Assembly: GCF_014199915.1 (NCBI RefSeq)
Contig: NZ_JACHOO010000001.1
Location: 672,328 to 736,327 of the forward strand
Length of the DNA stretch: 64,000 nt
Direction: 5' to 3'
From: Prosthecomicrobium pneumaticum
Lineage (GTDB): Bacteria > Pseudomonadota > Alphaproteobacteria > Rhizobiales > Kaistiaceae
Under the pieces are notes generated by a model. It was not told where the DNA came from. It saw only the letters and a list, made by a program, of their open reading frames with translations, and searched no databases. The translations under genes were made by a program, and so were the position numbers. Positions 34,684-50,996 of the stretch are shown in pieces (within the stretch, counting starts at the first letter, position 1; each line of letters begins with the position of its first letter).

Positions 34684-34818
34684 TAAAGGCCGGGTAAAAA
34701 AATCCGAACCCGGGGCCGCGGGCTTGCTCTCGGCGCGGGCTCGCGAAAATGATCGGGCCGTGTCGGCGCGGCGACCCCTTACCCGTCCTTGAGACGAGAT
34801 CCAATGGAGAAGCGGCCA

Positions 34819-35262
34819 ATGCCCAGCACCGTCACCCTGCATCGTGTTCTGACGACCCGCCCGGAAAAGCTCTATCGCGCCTTCGTCGAGCCGGACGCGC
34901 TCGCCCAATGGCTGCCGCCGAACGGCTTCGTCTGCACCGTCCACCACGTCGAGCCCCATGTCGGCGGCACGTTCCGGATGTCCTTCCGGAACTTCACCAA
35001 TGGCGAGAGCCATGCCTTCGGCGGCGAGTATCTGGAACTCGTCCCCGGCGAGCGCCTGCGCTACACGGACCGGTTCGATGATCCGGCGCTGTCCGGCACG
35101 ATCACGGTGACGGTCACGTTGAAGGCCGTCTCGGTCGGCACCGAACTGACCATCGTGCAGGAGGGCATTCCGGACGTGATCCCGCCCGAGGCCTGCTATC
35201 TCGGCTGGCAGCAGTCGCTGCGCAATCTCGCCCGGCTGGTCGAACCCGAGATCAACGGCTGA
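34819..35262 (+). CDS. SRPBCC (AHSA1-type) protein
   Basis: A 147-residue START-like domain protein of the Activator of Hsp90 ATPase type: LHRVLTTRPEKLYRAFVEPDALAQWL at the start, HHVEPHVGGTFRMSFRN and GGEYLELVPGERLRYTDRF in the middle, and CYLGWQQSLRNLARLVEPE at the end. Such small proteins bind hydrophobic ligands; true Hsp90 regulation is not implied. ATG at 34819 was preferred because GGAG lies nine bases upstream; ATG at 34804 is possible. It diverges from the DUF2239 gene and precedes a VOC gene, a common pairing in alphaproteobacteria. Confidence 0.85.
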   Translation: MPSTVTLHRVLTTRPEKLYRAFVEPDALAQWLPPNGFVCTVHHVEPHVGGTFRMSFRNFTNGESHAFGGEYLELVPGERLRYTDRFDDPALSGTITVTVTLKAVSVGTELTIVQEGIPDVIPPEACYLGWQQSLRNLARLVEPEING

Positions 35263-35313
35263 GGCGGGCCGCAAAGGCCCCGCGGCGCCGCACGATCAGG
35301 AGGAGGAGCGATC

Positions 35314-35793
35314 ATGACGACCCCGAAGAACACGATCTGCCTGTGGTTCGAAAGCGAGGCCGAGGCGGCCGCCCGGTTCTATACGGAGCTCTTTCCGGAC
35401 AGCGCGATGGGCGAGGTGTTTCTCGCGCCCACCGACTATCCCTCGGGCACGGCCGGTCAGGTGCTGACCGTCACCTTCACCGTCGCCGGCATTCCCTGTC
35501 TCGGGCTCAATGGCGGCCCGGCCTTCCGGCACAGCGAGGCCTTCTCCTTCCAGATCGCCACCGACGACCAGGAGGAGACCGACCGCTACTGGAACGCCAT
35601 CGTCGCCAATGGCGGGCAGGAGAGCGCCTGCGGCTGGTGCAAGGATCGCTGGGGCATCTCCTGGCAGATCACCCCGCGCGCCCTGACCGACGCCCTCGCG
35701 GCGGGCGGCGCGGAGTCGGCGCGCGCCTTCGCGGCGATGATGACGATGGGCAAGATCGACATCGCCGCCATCGAAGCCGCGCGCCGCGGCTGA
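35314..35793 (+). CDS. VOC-fold PhnB/3-demethylubiquinone-9 methyltransferase-like protein
   Basis: A 159-residue glyoxalase-fold protein of the PF06983 type. The typical start NTICLWFESEAEAAARFYTELFPDS is present in order (positions 6-30), followed by FTVAGIPCLGLNGGP and CGWCKDRWGISWQITPRAL. Despite the domain name, methyltransferase activity is unlikely and the function is unknown. AGGAGGAG lies five bases before the ATG. It follows the SRPBCC gene by 51 bases and probably shares its transcript. Confidence 0.85.
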   Translation: MTTPKNTICLWFESEAEAAARFYTELFPDSAMGEVFLAPTDYPSGTAGQVLTVTFTVAGIPCLGLNGGPAFRHSEAFSFQIATDDQEETDRYWNAIVANGGQESACGWCKDRWGISWQITPRALTDALAAGGAESARAFAAMMTMGKIDIAAIEAARRG

Positions 35794-35806
35794 GCGAAGG
35801 CCGCAA

Positions 35807-35868
35807 GGCCGGCATTCCGGCCGACCGACAGGGCCGAGGACAGGCGCCCCCACTCCACGGCGGGGGCG
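35807..35868. terminator. Two hairpins between convergent VOC and AraD1 genes
   Basis: GGCCGG/CCGGCC (35807-35812, 35817-35822) with loop CATT, and CGCCCCC/GGGGGCG (35845-35851, 35862-35868) with a ten-base loop, lie between the convergent stops at 35793 and 35888. No T-tract is present. They could stop transcription in either direction; confidence is low because GC-rich DNA forms such stems by chance. Confidence 0.35.
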
Positions 35869-35887
35869 TGCGGACCGCCGTCGGCGC

Positions 35888-36874
35888 TCAGAGCGCCACG
35901 ACGCGCGGGGCGGCATCCGCGGTGTGGCGGATCGTGTTGACGAGCGGCAGGCCGAAGGGAGCGGCGGCGATCGCGATGCGGTCGCCCGACTCGATCTTCA
36001 GACCCTCGGAGAAGCTGAGCAGGCTCGCGCCGTAGTAGTAGACGTGGACATCCCCCGGCCGGCGGAAGCCGGCATATTTGAAATGGTGGTGCTCCAGATT
36101 GGCGATCGAATGACACATGTTCGCCTCGCCCGACAGGAACACGCTCGACCAGATCTCGCGGCCGCCGCGCGACACCGACACGCGCCCCTCGACATGATCC
36201 GGCAGAGCGCCCACCAGGAGCTCCGGCCCGTAGGACGAGGCGCGCAGCTTCGAGTGCGCCAGATAGAGGTAATTGCGCTGCTCCATCACATGATCGGAGT
36301 ACTCGTTGCCGAGCGCGAAGCCGACCCGCAGCACCGCGCCGTCCGGCGCGATCACATAGAGCCCGGCGATCTCCGCCTCCTCGCCGCCGTCTTCGGCGAA
36401 ATCCGGCCGGTCGAGCGCCGCGCCCGGCGGCACGGCCCAGCTTCCGTCGCCCTTATAGGCCCATTCCGGCTGAACGCCGATCGCGCCCGGTGCGGGCTTG
36501 CCGCCCTCGATGCCGAGCTTGAACATCTTCATCGAGTCGGAGAGATCATCGGCGGCGAGCTTGGCGTGCATCGCGTCGCGCGACTGCGCGCTGCCGAGAT
36601 GGGTGAGCCCGGTAATGGCGAGGACGGTGCGCGCGGGCTCGGGATGATCGAGCGGCAGGAGGAGCCGCCCGGAAGCGGCGAGCGCCGCGGCATCGACCGT
36701 CTCCGGGCGGAGGAGGGTTTCGACATGGGCCGCAAGGCCGCGTCCGGCCGCATGGGCGGCGAGCGCCAGATCGCGGACCGACGTCGCGTCCACGACGCGG
36801 TGCGCCGGCGCGCCCGGCATCAGCGCCGCGACGCCGCGGCCGCCCGCCTCGGTCAGGAACTGCAACAGCCGCAT
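35888..36874 (-). CDS. AraD1/GguC-family protein (fumarylacetoacetate hydrolase superfamily)
   Basis: A 328-residue FAH-superfamily protein of the AraD1/GguC group. Diagnostic segments are VGFALGNEYSDHVMEQRNYLYLA, followed by HSKLRASSYGPELLVG, and GVQPEWAYKGDGSWAVPPGA. Acidic residues in AEDGGEEAEIAGLY and NEYSDH probably bind the divalent metal. Members act on 2-keto-3-deoxy sugar acids or their 2,4-diketo derivatives in non-phosphorylative aldose breakdown. It diverges from the aldo/keto reductase gene, with an operator-like site between (36896-36910). GGGAGGA lies six bases before the ATG. Dehydratase or hydrolase activity cannot be told apart by sequence alone. Confidence 0.82.
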   Translation of the reverse strand: MRLLQFLTEAGGRGVAALMPGAPAHRVVDATSVRDLALAAHAAGRGLAAHVETLLRPETVDAAALAASGRLLLPLDHPEPARTVLAITGLTHLGSAQSRDAMHAKLAADDLSDSMKMFKLGIEGGKPAPGAIGVQPEWAYKGDGSWAVPPGAALDRPDFAEDGGEEAEIAGLYVIAPDGAVLRVGFALGNEYSDHVMEQRNYLYLAHSKLRASSYGPELLVGALPDHVEGRVSVSRGGREIWSSVFLSGEANMCHSIANLEHHHFKYAGFRRPGDVHVYYYGASLLSFSEGLKIESGDRIAIAAAPFGLPLVNTIRHTADAAPRVVAL

Positions 36875-36895
36875 CGGATCCTCCCGGTGACATTA

Positions 36896-36910
36896 CCACT
36901 ATCGTATGAG
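36896..36910 (+). promoter_or_regulatory. FadR-type operator candidate, site 1
   Basis: TATGAG (36905-36910) preceded by TCG and a poor left arm (CCACTA). The same right half occurs at 41243-41248, 44817-44822 and 46962-46967, each time in a gene-start region of the sugar-acid cluster. The site lies between the divergent AraD1 and aldo/keto reductase genes. Confidence 0.5.
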
Positions 36911-36950
36911 TATATATCCGCATTCAGCCTGTCCATGGGAGGAAACGGCA

Positions 36951-37976
36951 ATGAAGGCAACGGACCGACGTCCGCTCGGCAAGTCCGGCATCGAGGTCAC
37001 GCTCTTGGGTCTCGGCGGTGCCCCGCTCGGCGATCTCTATGAGGCGATCCCCGAGGACCGGGCGCTCGCGACCATCGAGACGGCCTACCGGCTCGGCGTC
37101 CGGCTCTACGACACGGCGCCCTATTACGGCCAGGGCATCTCGGAGCACCGTTTCGGCCATGTGCTGCGGCAGCGGCCGGACGAGCGCGACGAGATCGTGC
37201 TGTCGACCAAGATCGGCCGCTACATGGTGCCGGAGCACCGCTCGAAGGTCGATCACAGCGTCTTCAAGGGCGGTCTCGATTTCCGCCTGATCGCCGATTA
37301 CAGCTATGACGGCACGATGCGGGCGCTCGATCAGAGCTGGCAGCGGCTCGGCATGAACCGCATCGACATCGTCCACATCCACGATGTCGACGTGCGCAGC
37401 TGGGGCGGCGTCGAGGCTTATGAGGCGCGCTTCAAGGAGGCGGCCGACGGCGCCTACAAGGCGCTCGACGAGTTGCGCTCCGCAGGAGTCGTCGGCGCGA
37501 TCGGCGTCGGCGTCAACGAGATCGAGCCGCTGCTCGCCTTCTCGAAGGTCGGCGATTTCGACTGCTTCATGCTCGCCGGCCGCTACACGCTGCTCGAGCA
37601 CGCCGCGCTCGACGAGTTGCTTCCGCTCTGCGAGACGCGCGGCATCGGCATCCTGACCGCCGGACCGTATAATTCGGGCATCCTCGCCACCGGCGCCCGG
37701 CCGGGCGCCAAGTACAACTACCAGCCGGCGCCGCAGGACATTCTCGACCGCGTCGCCGGGATCGAGGCGGTGTGCGGCCGGCACGGCGTCCCCCTCCCCG
37801 CCGCTGCGGTGCAGTTCCCGCTCGCCCATCCGGCGATCTCGGCCATGGTGCCGGGCGCGGTGCGGCCGGAAGAGGTCGAGGCGAATGTGAAGCTCGTCGA
37901 GACGCCGATCCCGGCCGATTTCTGGGCCGAGCTGAAGCACGAGGGCCTGCTGCGCGCCGACGCACCGACCCCCTGA
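36951..37976 (+). CDS. Aldo/keto reductase, L-fucose/D-threo-aldose dehydrogenase-like
   Basis: A 341-residue AKR (TIM barrel). The catalytic tetrad is visible as Asp and Tyr in VRLYDTAPYYGQG (about 43-55), Lys in LSTKIGRYM (near 86) and His in IVHIHDVDV (near 143). The start RPLGKSGIEVTLLGLGGAPLG and the following region resemble D-threo-aldose 1-dehydrogenase (L-fucose/galactose dehydrogenase) and pyridoxal 4-dehydrogenase. It would oxidise an aldose to its lactone with NAD(P), the first step of the pathway completed by the lactonase (42037-42939) and dehydratase (42958-44691). GGGAGGA lies seven bases before the ATG. Confidence 0.88.
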   Translation: MKATDRRPLGKSGIEVTLLGLGGAPLGDLYEAIPEDRALATIETAYRLGVRLYDTAPYYGQGISEHRFGHVLRQRPDERDEIVLSTKIGRYMVPEHRSKVDHSVFKGGLDFRLIADYSYDGTMRALDQSWQRLGMNRIDIVHIHDVDVRSWGGVEAYEARFKEAADGAYKALDELRSAGVVGAIGVGVNEIEPLLAFSKVGDFDCFMLAGRYTLLEHAALDELLPLCETRGIGILTAGPYNSGILATGARPGAKYNYQPAPQDILDRVAGIEAVCGRHGVPLPAAAVQFPLAHPAISAMVPGAVRPEEVEANVKLVETPIPADFWAELKHEGLLRADAPTP

Positions 37977-37981
37977 CGAAA

Positions 37982-38013
37982 GAAGCCCCGGCCGTGCGGG
38001 CGGCCGGGGCTTC
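37982..38013. terminator. Bidirectional terminator hairpin
   Basis: GAAGCCCCGGCCG (37982-37994) pairs perfectly over 13 bases with CGGCCGGGGCTTC (38001-38013) around a six-base loop. It lies between the convergent aldo/keto reductase and binding-protein genes. The A/T-containing base of the stem gives a short TTC on each strand, consistent with use in both directions. Confidence 0.8.
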
Positions 38014-38034
38014 CTGCGGGGCCAGGGAGGACGA

Positions 38035-39384
38035 CTACCCGCCCATGGCGCGGGTCATACCCGCAGCGGCATCCTTCATCGCCGTCTCGACGTCCTTCGT
38101 GCCGGTCAGCACATTGACGATCTCGATCGACAGCGCGTCGACGACCGGCGGGAACTTCGGATCGGAATACGGCACCCGGAGCGGCTGCACCGAAGCGAGC
38201 GTCTTCGAGATCTCGGCCGCGGTGTCGCCCGGATAGAACTTCCGGAAGCCCTCGTCTTCCCATACCGAGGCGCGGGCGACCGGCGAGCCGGTGTCGCGAC
38301 CGACGGCGAGCGAGATCTCCGGCGAGGTCGCCCAGGCGATGAACAGCGCGGCGGCTTCCTGATTACGGCTCGTTGCCGGCATGCCGAGCAGCCAGAACCA
38401 GTAGTTCGGCGCCGCCGCCTGATCGCCATAGCTCGGCCAGGCGAAGGTGCCGACCGTGTCGACGACGCGGCTGCTCGCCTTGTCGAGAACGACGGCGAGC
38501 TGGCCGCTCGCATCCGTATAGATCGCCGCCTTGCCGTCCTTGAACACGCCCGAGGCCTCGAGCCAGGACATGTTGGCGGTGCCCTGCGGGCCGTTCGCCT
38601 TCAGGAGCTTGTTGACATAGAGGTCGGTCGCCTTGACGCCCGCCTCGGTGTCGACCCCCGGCTTGCCGTCGACGAAGAAGTCGCCGCCATGGCCGAGGAA
38701 ATAGCCGGTCCAGACCCAGACCACGTCGAGGCCGCGCCGGCCGCGGCCGACGATACCCGCGACGCCGTCCTTGTTCATCGCCGTCGCCGCGGCCTCGAGA
38801 TCGTCGAAGGTGCGGATCGGGCCGAGACCGGCCTTTTCGAGCAGGTCGGTGCGGTAGATCACCGCCTCGGCCTCGGTGCTGATCGGCAGCGCCTGCAGGC
38901 TGCCGTTCATCGAGCCCGCCTCGCGGCCCGGCGCGAAGATGTCCTCCAGATTGTACCAGGACTTGTCGATGATCGCCGAGGAGGACAGAAGATCGCCGAG
39001 CGGGGCGAGCCAGCCGGCCGCCATATACTGGCCGGCCTGCATGTTGCCGACCATCAGCGCGTCGTAATTGCCCATGCCGGCGGAAAGCTCGACCGCGGCC
39101 TTCTGGTAATAATTATCCTCGGCGAGGACGTCGAGGGTGACCTTCATTCCGGTCAGCTTCTCGAACTCCGGAATCTTCGCCTTGACCGCGTCGGTCCACC
39201 AATGATTGACGAGCAGCAGGCGCAGATTGGTGCCGCTGAACTTCGCCCAGTCGCCGGCATTGGCGATCTGCGCATAGGCCGGGCCGAGTCCGCCGAGGCC
39301 GAGGCCCAGCGCACCCGCGCCGATGCCCTTCATGAGGCCGCGCCGCGTCGGCGTCCACAGCCCGGTCTTACCGTTCTTGATCAT
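38035..39384 (-). CDS. Sugar ABC transporter substrate-binding protein with Tat signal
   Basis: A 449-residue family 1 solute-binding protein. A twin-arginine motif TPTRRGLMKG (about 11-20) is followed by a glycine-rich hydrophobic core and GPAYAQ near residue 40, so Tat export is likely. The mature part has FSGTNLRLLLVNHWWTDAV, LPISTEAEAVIYRTDLL and AMGG at the end. ATG at 39384 was chosen because GGGAGGA lies six bases upstream; an in-frame ATG at 39399 precedes it. No permease genes adjoin it; the MalFGK genes at 47029-49933 in the same putative regulon have no binding protein and are the likely partner. Confidence 0.9.
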   Translation of the reverse strand: MIKNGKTGLWTPTRRGLMKGIGAGALGLGLGGLGPAYAQIANAGDWAKFSGTNLRLLLVNHWWTDAVKAKIPEFEKLTGMKVTLDVLAEDNYYQKAAVELSAGMGNYDALMVGNMQAGQYMAAGWLAPLGDLLSSSAIIDKSWYNLEDIFAPGREAGSMNGSLQALPISTEAEAVIYRTDLLEKAGLGPIRTFDDLEAAATAMNKDGVAGIVGRGRRGLDVVWVWTGYFLGHGGDFFVDGKPGVDTEAGVKATDLYVNKLLKANGPQGTANMSWLEASGVFKDGKAAIYTDASGQLAVVLDKASSRVVDTVGTFAWPSYGDQAAAPNYWFWLLGMPATSRNQEAAALFIAWATSPEISLAVGRDTGSPVARASVWEDEGFRKFYPGDTAAEISKTLASVQPLRVPYSDPKFPPVVDALSIEIVNVLTGTKDVETAMKDAAAGMTRAMGG

Positions 39385-39414
39385 TATCAGTCCTCCCATG
39401 GGATTGGTCTTGTC

Positions 39415-39437
39415 GCCCGCCGGAGCCGGCGGCGGGC
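39415..39437 (-). other. Hairpin between GMC oxidoreductase and binding-protein genes
   Basis: GCCCGCCG (39415-39422) pairs with CGGCGGGC (39430-39437) around a seven-base loop, in the 62-base gap between the GMC stop and the binding-protein start. It may raise the relative expression of the binding protein by protecting its mRNA, as is common in transporter operons. Inference only. Confidence 0.3.
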
Positions 39438-39446
39438 TCGTTGGTG

Positions 39447-41066
39447 TCAGATCGCGACGGGCGCCGGGCGCGGCTCGCCCATCATCAGGCCGACCGCCTT
39501 GTCGGCGATCGCCATCGTCGGCGCGTTGGTGTTCGCGCTGATGAGGTTCGGCATGATCGAGGCGTCGAACACGCGCAGGTTGCGGATACCGCGCACCGCG
39601 AGCTCGGGCGTCACCACCGCCATCGGGTCGCCGTCATGGCCCATCTTGCAGGTGCCGACCGGGTGATAGTTGGTCTTCACCGTGCGGCGGCAAAAGGCGG
39701 CGAGTTCCTCATCCGTCTGCGCGTCGGGCCCGGGCAGAACCTCGCGGGCGATGGTGTCGCTCATTGGCCGGCTGGCGAGGATCTCGCGGCCGTAGCGCAG
39801 CGCCGCGATCTCGATCCTCAGGTCGTCGGGATGACCGAGGAAGTTCGGATTGATCAGCGCGTTCTGCATCGGATCGGCGGAGCGCAGCTCGACATAACCG
39901 CGCGCCTTGGGCCGCATCAGGCAGCAGGTGAAGGTCACGCCGTGGCCGGGCGGCACGTCGGAGACGTCGCGGTCGAGATAGATCATCGCGACGCAGTAGA
40001 TCTTCACCGTCGTGTCGTCGGTGCGCGTCTCCGGATTGACGAAGGCGCAGGTCTCGGCGCCGTTCGAGGCGACCGGGCCGCTGCCGAAGAGCAGGTACTG
40101 GATGCCGTTGATCAGCATCTTCACCCCCCGCTCCTCGCCGAAATAGCCATAGGCGCCGTTCGTATAGGCGCTGACCGGCACTTCGTGGTGATCCTGCAGG
40201 TTACGGCCGACGCCCGGCAGATCGACCTTCACGTCGATGCCGTGCTTGCGCAGATGATCGGCCGGCCCGATGCCGGACAGCATCAGGAGCTTGGGCGAGA
40301 CATAGGAGCCCGCCGCGAGCACAACCTCGTTCGCCGCATGCGCCTTGTGGACCTGGCCGTTCTGGACATATTCGACGCCGATCGCCCGGTCGCCGTCGAA
40401 GAGCAGCCGCGTCACCTTCGCGCCCGTCTTCAGCGAGAAGCGCTTGTCCTTCCGGATCGGATCGATGAAGGCGCGCGCGGCGCTGCAGCGCTTGCCCTTG
40501 TGGGTGGTCAGTTGCATGAAGCCGGCGCCATACTGGTTGCCGGCGTTGAAATCATTCGTATAGGGCACGCCCATGCCCTGCATCGTCTTCAGGAAGATGT
40601 GGGCCATGTCGCAGATATAGAGGTGGTCCGAGACCTTGAGCGGACCGTCTATGCCGTGCGCCGGACCGTAGAGCCGCTGATTGCCCTCGAGCCGGGTGTA
40701 GTGCGCGAGCATGTCGCGCCAGCCCCAGCCTGCGCCGCCGGAGGCGACGTCCCACTCCTCATATTCGGACGGCTTGCCGCGCATGTAGATCATGGCGTTG
40801 ACCGAACTGCCGCCGCCGAGCACGTTCGCCTGCGGCACCTTCGTGGTGCGGCCACCGAGCAGCGCCTGCGGCTCGGATTCGTAGATGTTGAGATAGGGGC
40901 TGCCGCCGAGCATCTTGAAGAAGCCGGCCGGCATCGAGAAGAGCATGCTCCTGTCGAGGTGCCCCGCCTCGAGCATCAGCACCTTGGCGCCGTGGTCCTT
41001 GACCAGCCGCCAGGCCGTGACGCAACCGGAACTGCCGCCGCCGACGACGATGTAATCGTAGTCCAT
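39447..41066 (-). CDS. GMC-family FAD-dependent oxidoreductase (choline dehydrogenase-like)
   Basis: A 539-residue flavoprotein. The FAD dinucleotide motif VVGGGSSG is at 7-14, the GMC signatures are VPQANVLGGGSSVNAMIYMRG and AAGSYVSPKLLMLSGIGP, and the catalytic His lies in KTNYHPVGTCKMG near 470. No signal peptide is visible, so it is cytoplasmic. Members oxidise alcohols or sugar hydroxyls. GGAAGGA precedes the ATG at 41066. It is followed by the binding-protein gene and is controlled from the region with the operator at 41234-41248. Its substrate in the sugar-acid cluster is unclear; it could oxidise a polyol or 2-hydroxy side product. Confidence 0.9.
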   Translation of the reverse strand: MDYDYIVVGGGSSGCVTAWRLVKDHGAKVLMLEAGHLDRSMLFSMPAGFFKMLGGSPYLNIYESEPQALLGGRTTKVPQANVLGGGSSVNAMIYMRGKPSEYEEWDVASGGAGWGWRDMLAHYTRLEGNQRLYGPAHGIDGPLKVSDHLYICDMAHIFLKTMQGMGVPYTNDFNAGNQYGAGFMQLTTHKGKRCSAARAFIDPIRKDKRFSLKTGAKVTRLLFDGDRAIGVEYVQNGQVHKAHAANEVVLAAGSYVSPKLLMLSGIGPADHLRKHGIDVKVDLPGVGRNLQDHHEVPVSAYTNGAYGYFGEERGVKMLINGIQYLLFGSGPVASNGAETCAFVNPETRTDDTTVKIYCVAMIYLDRDVSDVPPGHGVTFTCCLMRPKARGYVELRSADPMQNALINPNFLGHPDDLRIEIAALRYGREILASRPMSDTIAREVLPGPDAQTDEELAAFCRRTVKTNYHPVGTCKMGHDGDPMAVVTPELAVRGIRNLRVFDASIMPNLISANTNAPTMAIADKAVGLMMGEPRPAPVAI

Positions 41067-41233
41067 CACTCTTCCTTCCGGGCGGCCCGGAGGGCGTGAC
41101 GATCCATCCATCACCTCCGGCACAGGTGTCCGGAGAGGCGGCTCTCACTCCCTCGCGGCGGCGCCTTCGCGAGCCCGCCATTCTTCTTGGGGCGGCCCGG
41201 GCGGGCTCGCCTCTTGTTTCTATTCCTCGTAGG

Positions 41234-41248
41234 ATAATAGAATATGAG
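41234..41248 (+). promoter_or_regulatory. FadR-type operator candidate, site 2
   Basis: ATAATA-GAA-TATGAG matches the palindrome CTCATA-CAA-TATGAG (46953-46967) in the whole right arm and four of six left-arm bases. It lies in the 217-base divergent region between the GMC oxidoreductase and SDR genes, 36 bases before the SDR start. Confidence 0.5.
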
Positions 41249-41283
41249 TAGCGGTCAAGCGCGCCAGAGTGGGAGGAAACAGC

Positions 41284-42033
41284 GTGTCGAAGCTATCGGG
41301 AGTTGTGATCGTGACGGGCGCGGCGTCGGGTATCGGCCGGCGCTCGGCCGAAATCTTCGCGGAGCGCGGCGCAACGGTGGTCGCCGCCGACATCAACCGC
41401 GCCGGGCTCGAGACGATTACGACGCCGGGCGTCCACGCCATCGCTGCGGACCTCACCCGCGCCGGGGACTGCCGCGAGGTCGCCGCCTTTGCGGCGCGCC
41501 TCGGCACGGTGGCGGGGCTCTTCAACTGCGCGGGCCTCGAACTGCACGGCAGCGTCGTCGACATGCCGGAGGAGGATTGGGACCGGGTGATGGCGATCAA
41601 TCTGAAGGCCATCTTCCTGCTCTCGAAGCACGTCATCCCGCTGATGGTCGCAGCGGGCGGCGGCGCCGTCGTCAACATGTCGTCGATCCACGCGCAGGCG
41701 AGTTCGCCCGAGGTCGCCGCCTATGCCGCAACGAAGGGGGCGGTGATCGCGATGACGCGGGTGATGGCGCTCGACCACGGCCGCGACAATGTCCGCGTCA
41801 CGGCGATCCTGCCGGGTGCCATCGACACGCCGCTGATGCGCGGCAATGCGGCCGCCTTCAATCCGGAGAACCCTGAGGCGAAGATCGCCGAATGGGCGGC
41901 CGAGCACGCGCTGAACCGGCTCGGCCGCACCGACGAGGTGGCGAAACTCGCCGCCTTTCTCTTGTCCGACGACGCTTCCTTCATCACCGGCTCGGCGCAT
42001 CTCGTCGACGGCGGCATGCTGGCGTCGTTCTGA
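41284..42033 (+). CDS. Short-chain dehydrogenase/reductase, possible keto-deoxy sugar-acid dehydrogenase
   Basis: A 249-residue classical SDR. TGAASGIG (about 10-17) binds NAD, with AADIN carrying the Asp that prefers NAD. NCAG is near 83, and the catalytic Ser-Tyr-Lys are in NMSSIH and YAATKG. The C-terminus GSAHLVDGGMLASF is typical. Similar SDRs oxidise 2-keto-3-deoxy-L-fuconate or -rhamnonate in non-phosphorylative routes, which suits the AraD1 protein nearby. Many other substrates are possible for the family. GTG at 41284 was chosen because GGGAGGA lies six bases upstream. It ends three bases from the convergent lactonase gene. Confidence 0.87.
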   Translation: MSKLSGVVIVTGAASGIGRRSAEIFAERGATVVAADINRAGLETITTPGVHAIAADLTRAGDCREVAAFAARLGTVAGLFNCAGLELHGSVVDMPEEDWDRVMAINLKAIFLLSKHVIPLMVAAGGGAVVNMSSIHAQASSPEVAAYAATKGAVIAMTRVMALDHGRDNVRVTAILPGAIDTPLMRGNAAAFNPENPEAKIAEWAAEHALNRLGRTDEVAKLAAFLLSDDASFITGSAHLVDGGMLASF

Positions 42034-42036
42034 GGC

Positions 42037-42939
42037 TCAGAGCGTGACGCGGTTCTCCGGCAGGCCCGTCACGCTCGTCTCCATGGCGAAGAGCGAGCCG
42101 CGCAGTCTCTCGCTCTCCGGCGCCATCATGCCGGCGGAGGTGAAGAAGAGCGTCGAGAGATCGTCGCCGCCGAAGGCGCAGGTGGTCGGATTGGTGACCG
42201 GCGTCTCGATCACCCGGTCGACCGTGCCGTCGGGCGCGATGCGGACGATGCAGCCGCCGCCGAACCGGCAGTTCCACAGATAGCCGTCCGAATCGATCGT
42301 CGAGCCGTCCGGACCGCCGCGGCCGAAGCCGGCGAGGAAGACCTCGGGCGCTCCGATCGTGCCGGCGGCGTCGTCATAGGCATGCACCCAGATGATGTCG
42401 GCGAGCGTGTCGGCGAAGTAGAAGCGGCTGCGATCGGGGCTCCAGCACAGCGTGTTGGATATGCCGATCCCGTCGCGGAACACCGCCGACGACCCCTCGC
42501 GGCCGATCCGGAAGAGCAGCCCGTCCGTGCCTCCGGCGTCGAGCACCTCGCCGTTCGGTCCGACATTCGAGCGCATCGACCCGACCCAGAACCGACCGGA
42601 CGGATCGCTCCGCCCGTCGTTGAGGCGGACATGCGGCGTCCCCTCGAGCACGAAGCCCTGAGGGCGCCTCGCATCGGTCTCCGGCGACCAGATCAGCAGG
42701 CGCGAGGCGACGGCGACGAGCATCTCATCCGCCCGGTCGGTGAGCGAGAGCGCCACCACCGGCTCGTCGAACATCCAGGAATGCACCGCCCCGTCCGCCG
42801 CCCGCCAGCGATGGACGAGGAAGCGGTTGATGTCGGTCCAGTAGACCGCCTTCTCGGACGCGCTCCACAGCGCGCCCTCGCCGCACCGGTCGCCGGCCGG
42901 CACGACACAGCGCACCGGCCCGATCTCGATTCCGCTCAT
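42037..42939 (-). CDS. SMP-30/gluconolactonase-family protein
   Basis: A 300-residue six-bladed beta-propeller lactonase. Metal-binding residues are seen in CGEGALWSASEKAVYWTDI (Glu), VRLNDGRSDPSGRFWVGSM (Asn, Asp), GISNTLCWSPD (Asn) and GGPDGSTIDSDGYLWNC (Asp). It hydrolyses aldonolactones to the free acid. It is next to the dehydratase gene (18 bases) and would supply its substrate from the lactone made by the aldo/keto reductase. GGGGAGGA lies five bases before the ATG. Confidence 0.92.
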   Translation of the reverse strand: MSGIEIGPVRCVVPAGDRCGEGALWSASEKAVYWTDINRFLVHRWRAADGAVHSWMFDEPVVALSLTDRADEMLVAVASRLLIWSPETDARRPQGFVLEGTPHVRLNDGRSDPSGRFWVGSMRSNVGPNGEVLDAGGTDGLLFRIGREGSSAVFRDGIGISNTLCWSPDRSRFYFADTLADIIWVHAYDDAAGTIGAPEVFLAGFGRGGPDGSTIDSDGYLWNCRFGGGCIVRIAPDGTVDRVIETPVTNPTTCAFGGDDLSTLFFTSAGMMAPESERLRGSLFAMETSVTGLPENRVTL

Positions 42940-42957
42940 TGGTCCTCCCCGAAAACG

Positions 42958-44691
42958 TCAGTGCGATTCGCGCGGCACGGCGGAGCCCCGCGTGCCGAGC
43001 AGGAAATCGAAGTCGCAGCCGGTATCCGCCTGCATCACGTGGTCGGTGAAGAGCCGCGTATAGCCCGTCTCCGAATGCGCCGCCGGCGGCGTCCAGGCCG
43101 CCTTGCGGCGTTCCAGTTCCTCCGCGCCGACATCGAGATGGATTCGCCGGCCCGGCACATCGACCTCGATCATGTCGCCGTTCTCGATCAGCGCCAGCGG
43201 CCCGCCGATCGCCGCCTCGGGCACCGTGTGCAGCAGCACCGTGCCGTAGGCGGTGCCGCTCATGCGCCCGTCGGAGAGGCGGATCATGTCGCGCACCCCC
43301 TTCTGCAGCACCTTGGGCGGCAGGCCCATATTGCCGACCTCGGCGAAGCCGGGATAGCCGACCGGCCCGCAATATTTGAGCACCATGATGCAGGTCTCGT
43401 CGATGTCGAGGTCCGGATCGCCGATCCGGGCGTGGTAGTCCTCGATCGATTCGAAGACGACCGCCCGGCCGCGATGCACCATCAGCTCGGGCGACGCCGC
43501 CGAGGGCTTCAGGATGCAGCCGCCGGGGGCGACGTTGCCGCGCAGCACGGCGATGCCGCCGCTCTCGGTGAGCGGCCTGTCCGCCGGACGGATCACCTCG
43601 GTGTCGAAGCACTCCGCATCGCGGATCCCCTCCCAGACCGGCTGGCCGGTGACGGTGAGCGCCTCCCGATGCAGATGGCCCTCCTCGGCGAGCCGCCGCA
43701 TCACCACCGGCAGGCCGCCGGCATAATAGAAGTCCTCCATCAGGAAGCGGCCCGACGGCATCAGGTCGACAATGGTCGGGATGTCGCGGCCGAGCCGGTC
43801 CCAGTCTTCGAGCGACAGCTCGATGCCGACCCGGCCGGCGATCGCGAGCAGGTGGACGACGGCGTTGGTCGAGCCCCCGATCGCGCCGTTGACGCGAATG
43901 GCGTTCTCGAAGGCGGCCCGCGTCAGGATCTGCGAGGGCTTCAGGTCCTCCTCGACCATCCTCGTGATGCGGTGGCCGACGGCGTTGGCGAGCACCATCC
44001 GGCGCGCATCGACGGCCGGGATCGCCGCATTGCCGGGCAGCGCCATGCCGAGCGCCTCGGCCATCGAGGCCATGGTCGAGGCGGTGCCCATCGTCATGCA
44101 ATGGCCGGCGGAGCGCGACATCGCCGCCTCGGCGGCCATGAACTCGTCGCTCGAGATGAGGCCGCTCTTCACGTCCTCGCTGAGCTGCCAGACGGCCGTC
44201 CCGGAGCCGATCGTGCGGCCGCGATAGCGCCCGTTCAGCATCGGCCCGCCGGACAGCACGATGGTCGGCAGGTCGACGCTCGCCGCACCCATCAGGAGCG
44301 CCGGCGTGGTCTTGTCGCAGCCGCAGAGCAGCACGACGCCGTCGATCGGATTGGCCCGGATCGATTCCTCGACATCCATCGAGACGAGGTTGCGCAGGAA
44401 CATCGCGGTCGGCCGGATATTCGACTCGCCCGTCGAGGTCACCGGGAACTCGACCGGGAAGCCGCCCGCTTCATAGACCCCGCGTTTCACATGCTCGGCG
44501 AGACCGCGGAAGTGCGCGTTGCACGGCGTCAGTTCCGACCAAGTGTTGCAGATGCCGATGACCGGTCGACCATCGAAGACATGCGATGGAAGCCCCTGGT
44601 TGCGCATCCAGCTGCGATGGATGAAGGCATCCTTGTCGTTCTTCCCGAACCACTCCGCCGACCGGTAGCGGCGCTTTTCTTTTTCGCTCAT
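42958..44691 (-). CDS. IlvD/Edd-family sugar-acid dehydratase
   Basis: A 577-residue iron-sulfur dehydratase. Cys57 (SELTPCN), Cys125 (LLCGCDKTTP) and Cys198 (SAGHCMTMG) are spaced as the cluster ligands of Rhizobium L-arabinonate dehydratase, with the whole set two residues earlier by my recollection. The catalytic serine motif GRMSGTAYG is present. The family turns an aldonate into a 2-keto-3-deoxy acid; the length and N-terminus fit the sugar-acid rather than branched-chain-amino-acid subgroup. L-arabonate, D-xylonate or L-fuconate are candidates. It diverges from the FadR-type regulator gene. ATG at 44691 was preferred; the frame upstream lacks family similarity. Confidence 0.9.
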   Translation of the reverse strand: MSEKEKRRYRSAEWFGKNDKDAFIHRSWMRNQGLPSHVFDGRPVIGICNTWSELTPCNAHFRGLAEHVKRGVYEAGGFPVEFPVTSTGESNIRPTAMFLRNLVSMDVEESIRANPIDGVVLLCGCDKTTPALLMGAASVDLPTIVLSGGPMLNGRYRGRTIGSGTAVWQLSEDVKSGLISSDEFMAAEAAMSRSAGHCMTMGTASTMASMAEALGMALPGNAAIPAVDARRMVLANAVGHRITRMVEEDLKPSQILTRAAFENAIRVNGAIGGSTNAVVHLLAIAGRVGIELSLEDWDRLGRDIPTIVDLMPSGRFLMEDFYYAGGLPVVMRRLAEEGHLHREALTVTGQPVWEGIRDAECFDTEVIRPADRPLTESGGIAVLRGNVAPGGCILKPSAASPELMVHRGRAVVFESIEDYHARIGDPDLDIDETCIMVLKYCGPVGYPGFAEVGNMGLPPKVLQKGVRDMIRLSDGRMSGTAYGTVLLHTVPEAAIGGPLALIENGDMIEVDVPGRRIHLDVGAEELERRKAAWTPPAAHSETGYTRLFTDHVMQADTGCDFDFLLGTRGSAVPRESH

Positions 44692-44807
44692 CCTGTGTCC
44701 AGACTCGGATCCATGAGGACGAGAGGGCCGAAACCATAGGGGCCTCATCCCGCCGGAGGGGCGGGGATGGCGGTCGCTGTTTGCACGTTGCGCCTCCCTC
44801 GCTACAT

Positions 44808-44822
44808 CTATTATTGTATGAG
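44808..44822 (+). promoter_or_regulatory. FadR-type operator candidate, site 3
   Basis: CTATTA-TTG-TATGAG matches the palindrome at 46953-46967 in the right arm and four of six left-arm bases. It lies between the divergent dehydratase and GntR-family genes, 48 bases before the regulator start, so the regulator may control itself and the dehydratase-lactonase pair. Confidence 0.55.
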
Positions 44823-44870
44823 TAATTCGCAGAGCTCGCAACGGTGCAGCAGCGCCGAGGAGAGAAAGCC

Positions 44871-45623
44871 GTGGACCTTGTCGACCTCCTGGCGCGCGTC
44901 AACGCGCCCTCCTCGGTCAGCCAGAGACGGCTGCACGGCTCCGTCGCGCATCAGCTCGCGGTGATGATCATCGGCGGGCGGCTGAAGCCGGGCGAAGTTC
45001 TGCCGAACGAGGACCTGCTCTCGGCGCAGCTCTCGGTCTCGCGCACCGCCTATCGCGAGGCGATGCGCATCCTGGTCGCGAAGGGCCTCGTCAAGTCGCG
45101 CCCCAAGGCCGGCACCACGGTCAATCCCCGCTCGGAGTGGAACATCCTCGATCCGGACGTGCTGTCCTGGCATTTCGAGGTCGAGCCGAGCCCCTCCTTC
45201 ATCATCGCGCTGTTCGAACTTCGCCGGATCATCGAGCCCGCCGGCGCGGCGATCGCGGCCGAGCGGCGGACGGCGGACGATCTCGCGGCGATGCGCAGCG
45301 CCCTCGAGAAGATGCGCACCATGCCGCCGGGCGACGTCACCGGCCTCGATGCCGACCTCGCCTTCCATCACACGATCCTCGTGGCGGCGAAGAACGAGGC
45401 GCTGCAGGCGCTCACCAATGTGATCGGCTCGACGCTGCGCTGGTCGGTCCGTTTGAAGATCACCGCCGACCCGCTCGTCTACGAGACCTCCCTCCCCGAC
45501 CATGTCGCGGTCATGGAAGCGATCGAGCGGCAGGATGCGGCGGAGGCGAGCGGGCGCATGACGATTCTCGTCAACAAGGCACTTTCGGATACGCTGCGCA
45601 CTCTCGAAAGCCAGTCCCGCTGA
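44871..45623 (+). CDS. GntR-family regulator, FadR subfamily (FCD domain)
   Basis: A 250-residue regulator. The winged HTH covers about 20-88 (QLAVMIIGGRLKPGEVLPNE, SRTAYREAMRILVAKGLV). The FCD ligand domain (about 105-245) has the metal-site residues Asp and His in DADLAFHHTILVA, with further His in SLPDHVAVMEAI. FCD regulators usually sense sugar acids or other carboxylates, which fits the surrounding enzymes. GTG at 44871 was chosen because GAGGAG lies about eight bases upstream; GTG at 44844 is the alternative. The next gene starts eight bases after its stop. Confidence 0.9.
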   Translation: MDLVDLLARVNAPSSVSQRRLHGSVAHQLAVMIIGGRLKPGEVLPNEDLLSAQLSVSRTAYREAMRILVAKGLVKSRPKAGTTVNPRSEWNILDPDVLSWHFEVEPSPSFIIALFELRRIIEPAGAAIAAERRTADDLAAMRSALEKMRTMPPGDVTGLDADLAFHHTILVAAKNEALQALTNVIGSTLRWSVRLKITADPLVYETSLPDHVAVMEAIERQDAAEASGRMTILVNKALSDTLRTLESQSR

Positions 45624-45631
45624 GTCTCTCC

Positions 45632-46777
45632 ATGATCGTCAATATCGAGGACGCGCGCCGCCGCGCCCGCCGCCGTCTTCCCCGTATGTTCTTCGACTAT
45701 CTCGACGGCGGCGCCTTCGCCGAGGCGACGATGCGGCGGAACCGCAGCGATTTCGACGCTCTGACCCTCGAGCAGCACGTTCTGGTCGACGTCTCCCGCC
45801 GTGACCTGACCCACCATTTCCTCGGCCGGACGTGGAAGCTGCCGATGATGCTCGGGCCGATCGGCTTCTGCGGCATGATGGCGGGCGGCGGCGAGGTGAA
45901 GGCGGCGACGGCCGCGGCGAAGGCCGGCATCGGCTTCGCGCTTTCGACCTTCGCGATCGCCTCGATCGAGGCCGTGCGGACGAAGGCGCCGCTCCCCGCC
46001 TTCCAGCTCTATATGTTCCGCGACCGGGCGATCGCCGCCGATCTCGTCGCCCGCGCCGCCGCGGCCGGCGTCGAGACGCTGTTCGTCACCGTCGACACCG
46101 CCGTCTCCGGCATTCGCGAGCGCGACACCCGGAACGGCTTCCGCACCTCGGCGCGGCTCGGGCCCCGCGCCCTGCTCGACATGGCGCTCCATCCGCTCTG
46201 GGGCCTCGATGTTCTCGCGAACGGCAAGCCGCAGCTCGGCAATGCCGCCGGCCGGCCCGGCATGGGCAGCACGCTGATGGCGCAGGCGGCGCAGTTCAGC
46301 GCCGGCCTCGACCCGACCGTCGGCCCGGCCGATCTCGAATGGCTGCGCTCGCGGTGGCAAGGCCGGCTGATCGCCAAGGGTGTGCTCTCCGCACGCGATG
46401 CGCAGACCGCGATCGATTCGGGCTGCGACGGCGTCGTCGTCAGCAATCACGGCGGGCGGCAGCTCGACGGCGCGCGCTCGACGATTTCGGTGCTGCCCGA
46501 GATCGCCGATGCGGTCGGCGGCCGTGCCGAGGTCCTGCTCGACAGCGGCATCCGCCGCGGCAGCGACATTGCGAAGGCGCTGGCGCTCGGCGCCGACGGC
46601 GTGCTGATCGGCCGGGCCTATATCTACGGCCTCGCCGCGGCGGGCGAAGCGGGCGTCGGCGGCGTGATCGAGCATCTGCGCGGCGAACTCGACGTCACCC
46701 TCGCCCTGATGGGCCTCGATTCGATCGCCGCGCTGAAGGCCGCAGGCCGCGACGCCGTCCGCCGCGCCACCCTCTGA
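45632..46777 (+). CDS. FMN-dependent alpha-hydroxy acid dehydrogenase (L-lactate dehydrogenase-like)
   Basis: A 381-residue FMN TIM-barrel enzyme. Signature residues are DYLDGGAFAEATMRRN (about 21-36), LIAKGVLSARDA (Lys contacting FMN), VSNHGGRQLDGA (catalytic His, then Arg) and LLDSGIRRGSDIAKALALGA with GADGVLIGRAYIYGLA. It oxidises L-lactate or another L-2-hydroxy acid to the keto acid, usually passing electrons to the respiratory chain. It is cotranscribed with the FadR-type regulator. L-lactate would be an end product if the pathway degrades L-fucose through a diketo acid. Glycolate or mandelate-type substrates are alternatives. Confidence 0.9.
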   Translation: MIVNIEDARRRARRRLPRMFFDYLDGGAFAEATMRRNRSDFDALTLEQHVLVDVSRRDLTHHFLGRTWKLPMMLGPIGFCGMMAGGGEVKAATAAAKAGIGFALSTFAIASIEAVRTKAPLPAFQLYMFRDRAIAADLVARAAAAGVETLFVTVDTAVSGIRERDTRNGFRTSARLGPRALLDMALHPLWGLDVLANGKPQLGNAAGRPGMGSTLMAQAAQFSAGLDPTVGPADLEWLRSRWQGRLIAKGVLSARDAQTAIDSGCDGVVVSNHGGRQLDGARSTISVLPEIADAVGGRAEVLLDSGIRRGSDIAKALALGADGVLIGRAYIYGLAAAGEAGVGGVIEHLRGELDVTLALMGLDSIAALKAAGRDAVRRATL

Positions 46778-46952
46778 TCCCCGGCCGGGCGGCATCCGGC
46801 CGCGCCCCCCCCGAATCGAGCGCCGCACGCTTCCCTTCGTCGAGTCCTTCGGCCGGGCCGTCAAAGCCGTGCGCCGGTCGCGGAGTCGCGTCCGGCTGTC
46901 CGGTGAGGATCGCGCGCGCGAGCGCAGCGTGACCCGCCTCGGCACTTTTCTT

Positions 46953-46967
46953 CTCATACAATATGAG
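46953..46967 (+). promoter_or_regulatory. FadR-type operator candidate, site 4 (perfect palindrome)
   Basis: CTCATA-CAA-TATGAG is a perfect inverted repeat with a three-base centre, 62 bases before the MalF-type permease start. It is the best copy of the motif found at 36896, 41234 and 44808. The rest of the 251-base gap 46778-47028 holds a C8 run and no gene. Confidence 0.65.
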
Positions 46968-47028
46968 GTATTAAATTCTCGCCGGGGCGGGGAAATCAGG
47001 AAGGCGCCCGCGGCGGGAGGAGTTGAAG

Positions 47029-47952
47029 ATGAGCACCCCAGCCGGTGCGCGGTCCGCCGCGCGCCGATCGCGCGGCCGCGGCCTCGTGGAGCGCTCCGCA
47101 CCGGTCGTGATGTTGGCGCCGATCATCATCGTGCTCGCCGCGCTCACCCTCTATCCGTTCTTCGCCAATGTCTGGTACAGCCTGCACGCGCGGGACCTGA
47201 CCCAGCCCTTCCAGACCGGCTTCAACGCGCCGCGCAATTTCGAGGCGGTCATCGAGGGCGGCAGCCTCCTGCACGCCCTCTCGATCACCGGCCAGTTCGT
47301 CGTCATCGCGCTCATCGTCGAGCTCGTGCTCGGCGGCCTGATCGCCCTCGCCCTCTGGCAGCCGATCCGCGGCGCGCGGCTCTTCTCGACCATCCTCATC
47401 CTGCCCTTCGGGCTCACGCCGGTGGCGCTCGCGCTCGCCTGGCGCCTGCTCCTCAATCCGGCCGGCGGCGGGCTCAATGCGATCCTCGCCCATCTCGGCC
47501 TGCCGACACTCGACTGGACGGCCTCGCCCGCCCTCGCGCTTCCCTCGCTGATCCTCGTCGACGTCTGGCAATGGACGCCCTTCGTCACGCTGATCCTGCT
47601 CGCCGGCCTCGTCGCGCTGCCGAACGAGCCGTTCGAGGCGGCTTCCGTCGAGGGTGCCGGCTATTGGCGCTCCGTCTTCGACATCGCCCTGCCGCTCCTC
47701 AAGCCGCTGATCCTCGTCGTCGTACTGTTCCGCGGCATCGACCTCTTCCGCACCTTCGACACCTTCTGGGTGATCACCGGCGGCGGACCGGGCAATGCCA
47801 CCGAGACGCTCAACATGCTGCTCTACCGGCTCGCCTTCCAGAACCTCAATTTCGGTCAGGCCGCCGCCCTCGCCCTGGTGATGCTGGTGATCGTGATCCT
47901 CTGCACGCAGCCGCTGATGAAGCGCCTCGTTGCGCGGAAGGACGGACGATGA
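47029..47952 (+). CDS. Carbohydrate ABC transporter permease, MalF type
   Basis: A 307-residue inner-membrane permease. After a basic N-terminus the first membrane segment spans about 24-44 (VVMLAPIIIVLAALTLYPFF). The EAA loop is EAASVEGAGYWRS with ALPLLKPL after it, and WVITGGGPGNATE is the MalF motif. ATG at 47029 has GGGAGGA seven bases upstream. It overlaps the MalG-type gene by ATGA and needs a binding protein encoded elsewhere, probably at 38035-39384. Confidence 0.92.
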   Translation: MSTPAGARSAARRSRGRGLVERSAPVVMLAPIIIVLAALTLYPFFANVWYSLHARDLTQPFQTGFNAPRNFEAVIEGGSLLHALSITGQFVVIALIVELVLGGLIALALWQPIRGARLFSTILILPFGLTPVALALAWRLLLNPAGGGLNAILAHLGLPTLDWTASPALALPSLILVDVWQWTPFVTLILLAGLVALPNEPFEAASVEGAGYWRSVFDIALPLLKPLILVVVLFRGIDLFRTFDTFWVITGGGPGNATETLNMLLYRLAFQNLNFGQAAALALVMLVIVILCTQPLMKRLVARKDGR

Positions 47953-48770
47953 AATCGCGCGGCTCCAATCTCGTCCGGTTTCTCGTCCTCCTCGTCTTCT
48001 GCGCGATCTGGGCGTTGCCGCTCCTCTATATCCTGCGCGTCGCCTTCGCCGCGCCGCTCGATGCGGCGAGCGGTGCGCCCTCGCCCTTCGCCGCCCTGTC
48101 GCTCGAGAATTTCCGCACCGTGCTCGCCAATCCGGAGATGATCCGGGCGCTCGGCAATTCGCTCGTCATCGGCGTCGTCTCGACGCTGCTCGTGCTCGCC
48201 ATCGCGACGCCGGCCGCCTTCGTCTGCGCGACCCGCGAGTTCCGCGGCCGCGAGATGATCGAGGGCTGGATCCTGAGCACCCGCATGCTGCCGGCCTTCG
48301 TCGTCATCCTCCCCTATTTCATGCTGTTCCGCACGGCGCATCTTCTCGACACCATGCTCGGCCTCGTGATCATGCACGTGATCGTCAGCCTGGCGCTCGC
48401 CTTCTTCATGCTGCGGAGCTTCTTCGCCGAACTGCCGCGCGAGGTGCTCGAGGCGTCCTACATGGAAGGCGCCGGCAGCTACCGCACCTTTGCGAGCGTC
48501 GCGCTGCCGCAGGTGCGCGGCGGCCTGATCGCCACCGGCATCATGGTGTTCATCTTCTCCTGGAACGAGCTCGCCTTCGCCTTCACCCTCGCCGGCGGCG
48601 CGGTGAAGACCGGGCCGGTCGCCATCCTCGGCTTCATGGCTTTCCAGAACGTCCAGATCGCCCCGCTGATGGCGGCGGCGAGCATCCTGATCGCGCCGAT
48701 CGCGATCCTTCTCATCCTCGCGCAGAAGGGGCTCATCCGCGGCCTCAGCTTCGGCGCGGTCAAGGCATAG
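47949..48770 (+). CDS. Carbohydrate ABC transporter permease, MalG type
   Basis: A 273-residue permease with six membrane segments. The EAA loop is EASYMEGAGSYRT followed by VALPQVRGG, and the protein ends LSFGAVKA as typical for MalG-like subunits. It is translationally coupled to the MalF-type gene and lies five bases before the ATPase gene. It imports the sugar or sugar acid degraded by the neighbouring enzymes. Confidence 0.92.
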   Translation: MKSRGSNLVRFLVLLVFCAIWALPLLYILRVAFAAPLDAASGAPSPFAALSLENFRTVLANPEMIRALGNSLVIGVVSTLLVLAIATPAAFVCATREFRGREMIEGWILSTRMLPAFVVILPYFMLFRTAHLLDTMLGLVIMHVIVSLALAFFMLRSFFAELPREVLEASYMEGAGSYRTFASVALPQVRGGLIATGIMVFIFSWNELAFAFTLAGGAVKTGPVAILGFMAFQNVQIAPLMAAASILIAPIAILLILAQKGLIRGLSFGAVKA

Positions 48771-48775
48771 GTCTC

Positions 48776-49933
48776 ATGGCTCGGATCAGCATCGAAGGCG
48801 TCACCAAGCGCTATTCCGACGGCTCGGCTGCGGTCGACAACGTCTCGATCGAGGTCGCCGACGGCGAGTTCCTCGTTCTCGTCGGCCCGTCCGGCTGCGG
48901 CAAGTCCACCCTGCTGCGGATGATCGCCGGGCTCGAGGACATCACCTCCGGCGCCATCCGGGTCGACGACCGCATCGTCAACGACCTGCCGCCGAAGGAT
49001 CGCGACATCGCGATGATCTTCCAGACCTACGCGCTCTTCCCGCACATGACGGTCGAGAAGAACCTCCGCTATGGCCTGAAAGTCCGCGGCACGCCGAAGG
49101 CGGAAGCCGATGCCCGCGTCCAGAAGGCGGCGAAGACGCTCGGCCTCCTGCCCCTGATGAACCGCCGGCCCGGCCAGCTCTCCGGCGGCCAGCGCCAGCG
49201 CGTCGCGATCGGCCGGGCGCTGGTGCGCGAGCCCTCGGTCTTCCTGATGGACGAGCCGCTCGCCAATCTCGATACCAAGCTGCGCGTCCACATGCGCACC
49301 GAGTTCGCCCGCCTGCGCGAGCAGTTGCGCACGACCACCGTCTACGTCACCCACGATCAGGTCGAGGCGATGACGCTCGGCCACCGGGTCTGCGTGCTGC
49401 GCGACGGCGTCGTCCAGCAGATCGACACGCCCGACCAGCTCTTCGCCCGGCCGAAGAACATGTTCGTCGCCGGCTTCATCGGCTCGCCCGAGATGAACTT
49501 TGCGAAGGCGAAGGTCGTGGGCCGCACCGTGACGCTCGGCAGTCACGCGGTCGGCCTGCCTGACGACGTCGATCTCGCTCGCCATGACGGCCGCGAGATC
49601 GTGCTCGGCATCCGTCCGAGCGACTTCTACGAGCGTGCGGACGGTCAGTTCATGGTCGATGTCGAGCTCGTCGAGCGGCTCGGCAGCGAGAACATCGTCG
49701 TCTTCCCCGTCGCCGCCGAGAGTGTGCGGGCCGACCGGATCGGCGGGCGCGCCTCGGCCGTCGTCGACGACGAGGAGGCGCTGCAGGCCGGCCAGGCGGG
49801 CCGCACCCCCTTTACCGCGCGGCTCGACGGCACCGCGAAGGCGCGGGCCGGCGTGCCGCTCCGCCTCGGCGTCGCGCCGGAGGCGCTGCATTTCTTCGAT
49901 CCTCAGACCGGCCTTTCGATCGGCAGGCGCTGA
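48776..49933 (+). CDS. Sugar ABC transporter ATPase, MalK/UgpC type
   Basis: A 385-residue ATPase. Walker A GPSGCGKST (about 37-45), Q-loop FQTYALFPHMTV, signature LSGGQRQRVAIGRALV, Walker B VFLMDEPLANLD and switch YVTHDQVEAMTL are intact. The C-terminal OB/TOBE regulatory domain starts near 235. It is the only MalK-type ATPase gene in the window and could energise the two ATPase-less MalEFG sets at 2275-5408 and 13018-16120 as well. Such sharing is known for MsmK/UgpC-like ATPases; here it is inference. Confidence 0.93.
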   Translation: MARISIEGVTKRYSDGSAAVDNVSIEVADGEFLVLVGPSGCGKSTLLRMIAGLEDITSGAIRVDDRIVNDLPPKDRDIAMIFQTYALFPHMTVEKNLRYGLKVRGTPKAEADARVQKAAKTLGLLPLMNRRPGQLSGGQRQRVAIGRALVREPSVFLMDEPLANLDTKLRVHMRTEFARLREQLRTTTVYVTHDQVEAMTLGHRVCVLRDGVVQQIDTPDQLFARPKNMFVAGFIGSPEMNFAKAKVVGRTVTLGSHAVGLPDDVDLARHDGREIVLGIRPSDFYERADGQFMVDVELVERLGSENIVVFPVAAESVRADRIGGRASAVVDDEEALQAGQAGRTPFTARLDGTAKARAGVPLRLGVAPEALHFFDPQTGLSIGRR

Positions 49934-49937
49934 CGTC

Positions 49938-50840: not shown

Positions 50841-50890
50841 AGCCCCCCGACCGCGCCGTCGATCGCGACGGAGACCCCGCAGCCGAACAG

Positions 50891-50906
50891 GGCGGACTTA
50901 TCCGCC
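50891..50906. terminator. Weak hairpin between convergent aldolase and TetR genes
   Basis: GGCGGA (50891-50896) pairs with TCCGCC (50901-50906) around CTTA, in the 156-base gap between convergent stops. Only six base pairs and no T-tract, so a terminator role is uncertain. Confidence 0.3.
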
Positions 50907-50996
50907 GCGTGCGGAGAGCGCCGGAAGCGCCCCACGTCGCGGAAGCCTGTCCGAACCCGCTCACTGATCTCTTTCCGCGCCCGGGCGCGAGCAGGC

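Follow-up and report, generated by a model that had tools for sequence, protein, structure and literature searches.

Within the 64,000-base stretch of Prosthecomicrobium pneumaticum DNA analysed here (the window; contig NZ_JACHOO010000001.1, positions 672,328 to 736,327), four short sites between gene starts are proposed to be the operators of one local regulator, the GntR-family protein with an FCD domain encoded at 44871-45623, which would be a DgoR-related repressor released by a sugar acid; a probability of about 85% is assigned to this reading. The sites mark a real, conserved, local regulon which is ordinary in kind and has a slightly unusual operator. Three lines of evidence, namely conservation in three genera, a matrix built from other genomes and genome-wide specificity, support one predicted operator being shared by the regulator's own promoter and by the nearby promoters of catabolic and transport genes. 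An earlier note on this DNA had proposed one regulator for about twelve genes in five transcripts; on the same three grounds its local regulon with a single operator stood, while its counts were revised to 13 genes and about seven predicted transcripts, as deduced from gene strands and spacing. The cluster thus gains a concrete candidate regulator, operator and target set for sugar-acid breakdown, and a candidate motif outside the usual consensus is added to the FadR subfamily.

Putative operator 1 (CCACTATCGTATGAG, 36896-36910, plus strand) is common to the promoters of the AraD1 and aldo-keto reductase (AKR) genes, and putative operator 2 (CTCGTAGGATAATAG as read on the plus strand; 41226-41240, assigned to the minus strand) to those of the GMC oxidoreductase and short-chain dehydrogenase/reductase (SDR) genes. 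Putative operator 3 (CTATTATTGTATGAGTAA, 44808-44825, plus strand), common to the dehydratase and regulator promoters, is identical in three genera, and putative operator 4 (CTCATACAATATGAG, 46953-46967, plus strand) stands before the MalF gene. The operator is estimated at about 15-18 bp, with TATGAG as its better half. The hexamer was found on the plus strand at 36905, 41243, 44817 and 46962, near gene starts as the earlier note had described and in all four cases between them; a minus-strand copy at 46953 forms the other arm of CTCATA-CAA-TATGAG, which was confirmed as a perfect palindrome at 46953-46967. At the GMC/SDR promoters a shared operator does precede the genes, but in a different register from the one given in that note: alignment of the three genera placed the conserved block, CTCnnAGGATARTAG, at 41226-41240, while in the other two genera TATTAC and a TTAGAA-like sequence stand in place of the TATGAG at 41243. 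The 41243 copy was consequently rejected as the anchor there, and the overlapping match which contains it (ATAATAGAATATGAG, 41234-41248, plus strand) has a right arm not kept in either genus. Read on the minus strand as CTATTATCCTnnGAG, operator 2 is the same type of site as CTATTATTGTATGAG.

The window holds 12 copies of TATGAG (expected, 5.58), a count reached by 1 of 100 shuffles, and five of these copies fell in the four promoter gaps, which together make up 723 of its 64,000 bases. As the remaining seven lay elsewhere, three of them within cluster genes (37038, 37419 and 40758), the hexamer alone is not a marker and was rejected as the operator. The probability of at least one copy on either strand (5,000 shuffles per gap, with the gaps picked after the motif had been seen) was 0.076 for the AKR gap, 0.065 for SDR, 0.086 for FadR and 0.020 for MalF, with a product of approximately 8e-6 for gaps chosen post hoc. 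The best sites matched CTCATA-N3-TATGAG at 9 (AKR), 10 (SDR), 10 (FadR) and 12 (MalF) of 12 positions, which was equalled in 5.0%, 0.26%, 0.42% and 0% of shuffles, respectively; the AKR site is weak by this measure. With up to three mismatches allowed, the whole window held 7 matches to the palindrome where 4.9 would be expected, and 25 of 100 shuffles had as many. Since this count is near expectation, the window alone is insufficient, and the case is made by comparison with other genera.

Relatives of the regulator were sought in two sets, of 61 genomes and of 397 genomes of the order. In the first set the closest relatives came from two other genera, G003 (68% identical) and G021 (62%), all other listed matches being at most 48% identical; in the second the next closest were those of G249 (59%) and G110 (57%). 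Seventeen window genes (34804-52601) were compared, with a hit of at least 38% identity and at least 40% coverage taken as a counterpart. In the same general order, the fetched stretch of G003 contained 11 of the 13 cluster genes (SDR and AraD1 being without a hit) and that of G021 contained 12 (no SMP-30 hit), counts which refer to the fetched stretches, as absent genes were not sought elsewhere in those genomes. The motif was present at the corresponding promoters of both clusters. In the gap between the regulator and dehydratase genes CTATTATTGTATGAGTAA was found in all three genera, giving a longest common word of 18 bases compared to no more than 9 in 200 shuffles. The MalF promoter carried CTCATACAATATGAG in the window, CTCATATAATATGAG in G003 and CTCATACAATATTAG in G021; the GMC promoter carried CTCGTAGGATAATAG, CTCTGAGGATAGTAG and CTCTGAGGATAATAG in the same order, and the AKR promoter carried CCACTATCGTATGAG in the window and CCAATATAATATGAG in G021. 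Among 30 loci around regulators from the 61-genome search, TATGAGTA was present only in the three orthologues. A scan of named genomes gave 12 relatives at 27-52% identity, and the whole cluster was in none of the stretches examined.

A weight matrix was built from seven sites of G003 and G021, with none from the window, and with it the four window promoters outranked everything else in the window. Ranks 1 to 6, both strands included, were the window sites (36.2, 27.2, 26.2, 23.2, 21.8 and 18.2 bits), ranks 7, 8, 10, 12 and 14 overlapped the same sites, and the best unrelated place scored 10.0 bits. In the 4.65-Mb own genome (G000), YWMNTANNNTATGAG matched operators 3 and 4 and nothing else (control, one match). 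The genome-wide motif search proposed in the earlier note gave five matches to CTCNNANNATADKRG, four of which are the operators (control, two matches); as all the sites went into this pattern, its sensitivity is built in, and the information lies solely in the scarcity of other matches. The exact 16-mer TATTATTGTATGAGTA occurred in 3 of 397 genomes (G000, G003 and G021), each time in the regulator gap, and an 18-position model of the seven G003 and G021 sites gave seven matches (E<=10) across three genomes, every one of them within the clusters. The hexamer by itself is thus unspecific, while the full motif is specific.

A wider regulon was rejected, as the strict pattern matched outside the clusters at 1 (G000), 1 (G003) and 2 (G021) places, compared to 2, 2 and 4 for a reversed control. 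A second pattern with one mismatch gave 3, 1 and 6 outside places against 1, 2 and 6 for the control, G000 being slightly above it. Each of the 12 outside places falls on an open frame of 120 codons or more, but frames of this length are frequent at such a G+C content, and at L052, L064 and L066 the site may fall outside the real gene. Two of the G000 places lie near weak homologues of cluster genes, an SDR (34%, L071) and an ABC ATPase (24%, L069).

Several results weigh against the proposed operators. Pattern and matrix were derived from sites found in part through TATGAG, which makes them a test of consistency and not a blind one. The AKR counterpart in G003 is weak (AACATATCATAAGAG only), and the words that all three genera share exactly in the AKR, SDR and MalF gaps reached 6 bases, no better than shuffles, so that support at these promoters consists of motif likeness at the same place and not of long identity. 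With one mismatch the 16-mer was found in 4 genomes compared to 11 for a reversed control, and therefore only exact matches carry weight; the added match, in G104, sits among unrelated frames. The 18-position model gave a best E of 0.2 per genome and recovered one of the four window operators at E<=10. No such site was present within 400 bases upstream of the 51-59% identical relatives in six other genomes (G249, G095, G130, G230, G298 and G324). A promoter scan of 35800-51100 gave 4 matches against 1.2 expected, two overlapping operators 2 and 3 and two inside genes, with none at operators 1 or 4 nor for the SDR or regulator genes.

The protein encoded at 44871-45623 (plus strand) scored above cut-off for an N-terminal GntR winged helix (PF00392, 58.5 bits) and a C-terminal FCD domain (PF07729, 81.5 bits), which by sequence places it in the FadR subfamily of GntR proteins, FCD type. 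Its predicted structure had a mean pLDDT of 88.5, and the 50 Foldseek matches listed were all GntR-family structures with modest TM-scores; the nearest solved sequence was E. coli DgoR (7c7e). The metal ligands of DgoR are D146, H150 and H195 according to passages of PMC7674646, and D162, H166 and H211 of the regulator align with them. In the D-galactonate pocket, R102, which the same passages describe as needed for ligand binding, is kept as R118, while Q173 and R179 are both replaced by leucine (Leu189 and Leu195), unlike the pocket expected of a DgoR orthologue for D-galactonate. With the ligands and R118 kept and Leu189 in place of Q173, the comparison supports a metal-dependent acid sensor, with no specific case for D-galactonate.

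This protein is the probable binder of the sites because of its location, because the best conserved site lies at the promoter of its own gene, because the adjoining TetR gene is absent from the other two clusters, and because of a relative in G110. Among the 17 genes compared it was the one regulator gene present in all three clusters, and the TetR gene was not. The G110 relative (57%; L087:9000-9450, start codons inferred) is divergent from a different sugar ABC transporter and has TTGTATGAG twice upstream, one copy per strand. In G316 and G376, two genomes of one genus (L093 and L094), 48% and 47% identical relatives adjoin a MalK-like gene and have GTCATACGATAG in the 400 bases upstream, which resembles operator 1 (CTCATACGATAGTGG).

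The FadR-subfamily consensus is TKGT-N3-ACMA, with exceptions which include BioR and NanR, in passages of PMC4494728. The operator centred on the perfect palindromes has a TA-N3-TA core, and the off-centre register TTGT-ATG-AGTA keeps one box; a centre which departs from the usual GT-N3-AC core is likely to be a mildly unusual feature of this operator. The motif was named in none of the papers listed by literature searches, and TATGAG was absent from the main text of PMC4494728; as supplements and RegPrecise were not covered, the motif may have been predicted before. We suggest tentatively, at somewhat less than even odds, that the regulator belongs to a FadR-subfamily branch (NED or NEE then SRTAYRE in the recognition region) which reads CTMATA-N3-TATGAG without a GT-N3-AC core, together with the divergent CTATTATCCTnnGAG at the GMC promoter, doubling there as a -10 element.

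It is improbable that the sites serve another regulator encoded elsewhere, with the FCD protein merely one target. Proteins which travel together are not separable by co-occurrence, and the own genome holds 25 matches to the regulator at E<=0.001, one of them 44% identical and on the same contig; against this, the motif matches of that genome are, apart from chance-level ones, limited to the cluster, which is the distribution expected of a local regulator; the promoter of the FCD gene itself holds the best conserved site; and the stretches fetched from G003 and G021 contained no counterpart of the adjoining TetR gene.

Less probable still is that the common A/T-rich words are conserved promoter elements (-10 or start regions) instead of operators. 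Hexamers resembling -10 boxes do lie inside operators 2 and 3: the promoter-like TTGACC-16-TATCCT for GMC (41231-41258, minus strand) overlaps operator 2 in a layout that recurs in G003 and G021, and TTGCGA-17-TACAAT for the dehydratase (44813-44841, minus strand) overlaps operator 3. As the -10-like TATCCT of TTGAYC-16-TATCCT lies within the minus strand of operator 2 in all three genera, part of the conservation at the GMC site may stem from the promoter. The 18-base word in the regulator gap, however, is longer than any -10 box, the palindrome of site 4 is perfect, and the motif is not spread genome-wide as a promoter element would be. Chance placement of TATGAG in the four gaps, which the seven outlying copies and the near-expected palindrome count of the window would allow, has a very low probability given that the sites are conserved in other genera and specific in the genome.

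Under the preferred reading, in which the FCD protein acts at all four sites, a regulator dimer without inducer would cover the roughly palindromic 15-18 bp site, CTMATA-N3-TATGAG, with CTATTATTGTATGAGTAA as its strongest form, and the bound site, on or beside the -10 region, would block transcription of seven units: AraD1; AKR; GMC with the ABC sugar-binding protein (SBP); SDR; dehydratase with lactonase; the regulator gene plus that of the FMN dehydrogenase; and the operon for MalFGK and the aldolase. The promoter-like sites that overlap operators 2 and 3 count in favour of this reading. The repressor would be released by a sugar acid or a keto-acid intermediate, probably by way of a metal held by D162, H166 and H211.

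On the minus strand the cluster encodes an AraD1/GguC family protein (35888-36874, NF040903), which we take to belong to the FAH-type COG3970 group, the SBP (38035-39399, PF01547), the GMC oxidoreductase (39447-41066, PF00732 and PF05199), an SMP-30/gluconolactonase family lactonase (42037-42939, PF08450) and an IlvD/EDD sugar-acid dehydratase (42958-44691). The last barely passed the L-arabinonate dehydratase cut-off (NF009559, 884.5 bits; cut-off 882), and the broader NCBIfam subfamily scored higher (NF004784, 940.5 bits). On the plus strand, besides the regulator (identified by Pfam domains and structure comparison), are the AKR (36951-37976, PF00248), the SDR dehydrogenase (41284-42033, PF13561), an FMN-dependent L-lactate dehydrogenase-like protein (45632-46777, Pfam/NCBIfam), MalF-like (47029-47952, PF00528) and MalG-like (47952-48770, PF00528, start codon tentative) permeases, a MalK-like ATPase (48776-49933, PF00005 and PF17912) and a DHDPS-family aldolase or dehydratase (49938-50840, PF00701). 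The predicted enzymes would suit a non-phosphorylative route in which an imported sugar is broken down by oxidation, lactone opening, dehydration and cleavage. The route may run from sugar to lactone, sugar acid and 2-keto-3-deoxy acid, which either the DHDPS-type protein or the SDR together with an FAH-type protein would then cleave; lactate as end product would presumably account for the FMN enzyme. Routes with SDR and FAH-type proteins which end in glycolate or lactate are described in passages of PMC6336799. Directly after the cluster (50997-52601) the TetR gene, with an MftR-type C-terminal domain, is divergent from another SDR gene. Elsewhere in the window, a 1096-aa open frame (30231-33521) combines a heptosyltransferase (glycosyltransferase family 9) stretch with a family 2 glycosyltransferase at the C-terminus.

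Among known systems, the regulator resembles E. coli DgoR (PDB 7c7e) in its GntR and FCD domains and in its D/H/H metal ligands and the equivalent of R102. DgoR represses a sugar-acid pathway from inverted repeats overlapping its own promoter, as passages of PMC12288454 describe, and here putative operators 2 and 3 overlap promoter-like sites. The systems differ in that IR1 of DgoR holds TTGTA-G-TACAA (PMC12288454), while the sites here are without a second TACAA arm, and in that four sites are spread here over 13 genes, which encode different enzymes and an ABC transporter, Q173 being Leu189. BioR (motif TTATMKATAA) also has a FadR-subfamily site without the GT-N3-AC core, as passages of PMC4494728 describe, a likeness in the type of site, with a different sequence and pathway (biotin). 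The non-phosphorylative pentose and deoxyhexose clusters of Herbaspirillum huttiense, as far as portions of PMC6336799 describe them, share ILVD/EDD dehydratases, SDR and FAH-type COG3970 proteins, often clustered with ABC transporter and regulator genes, and the present cluster differs from them in also encoding a GMC oxidoreductase, an aldo-keto reductase, a MalFGK-type transporter and an FMN lactate dehydrogenase-like enzyme.

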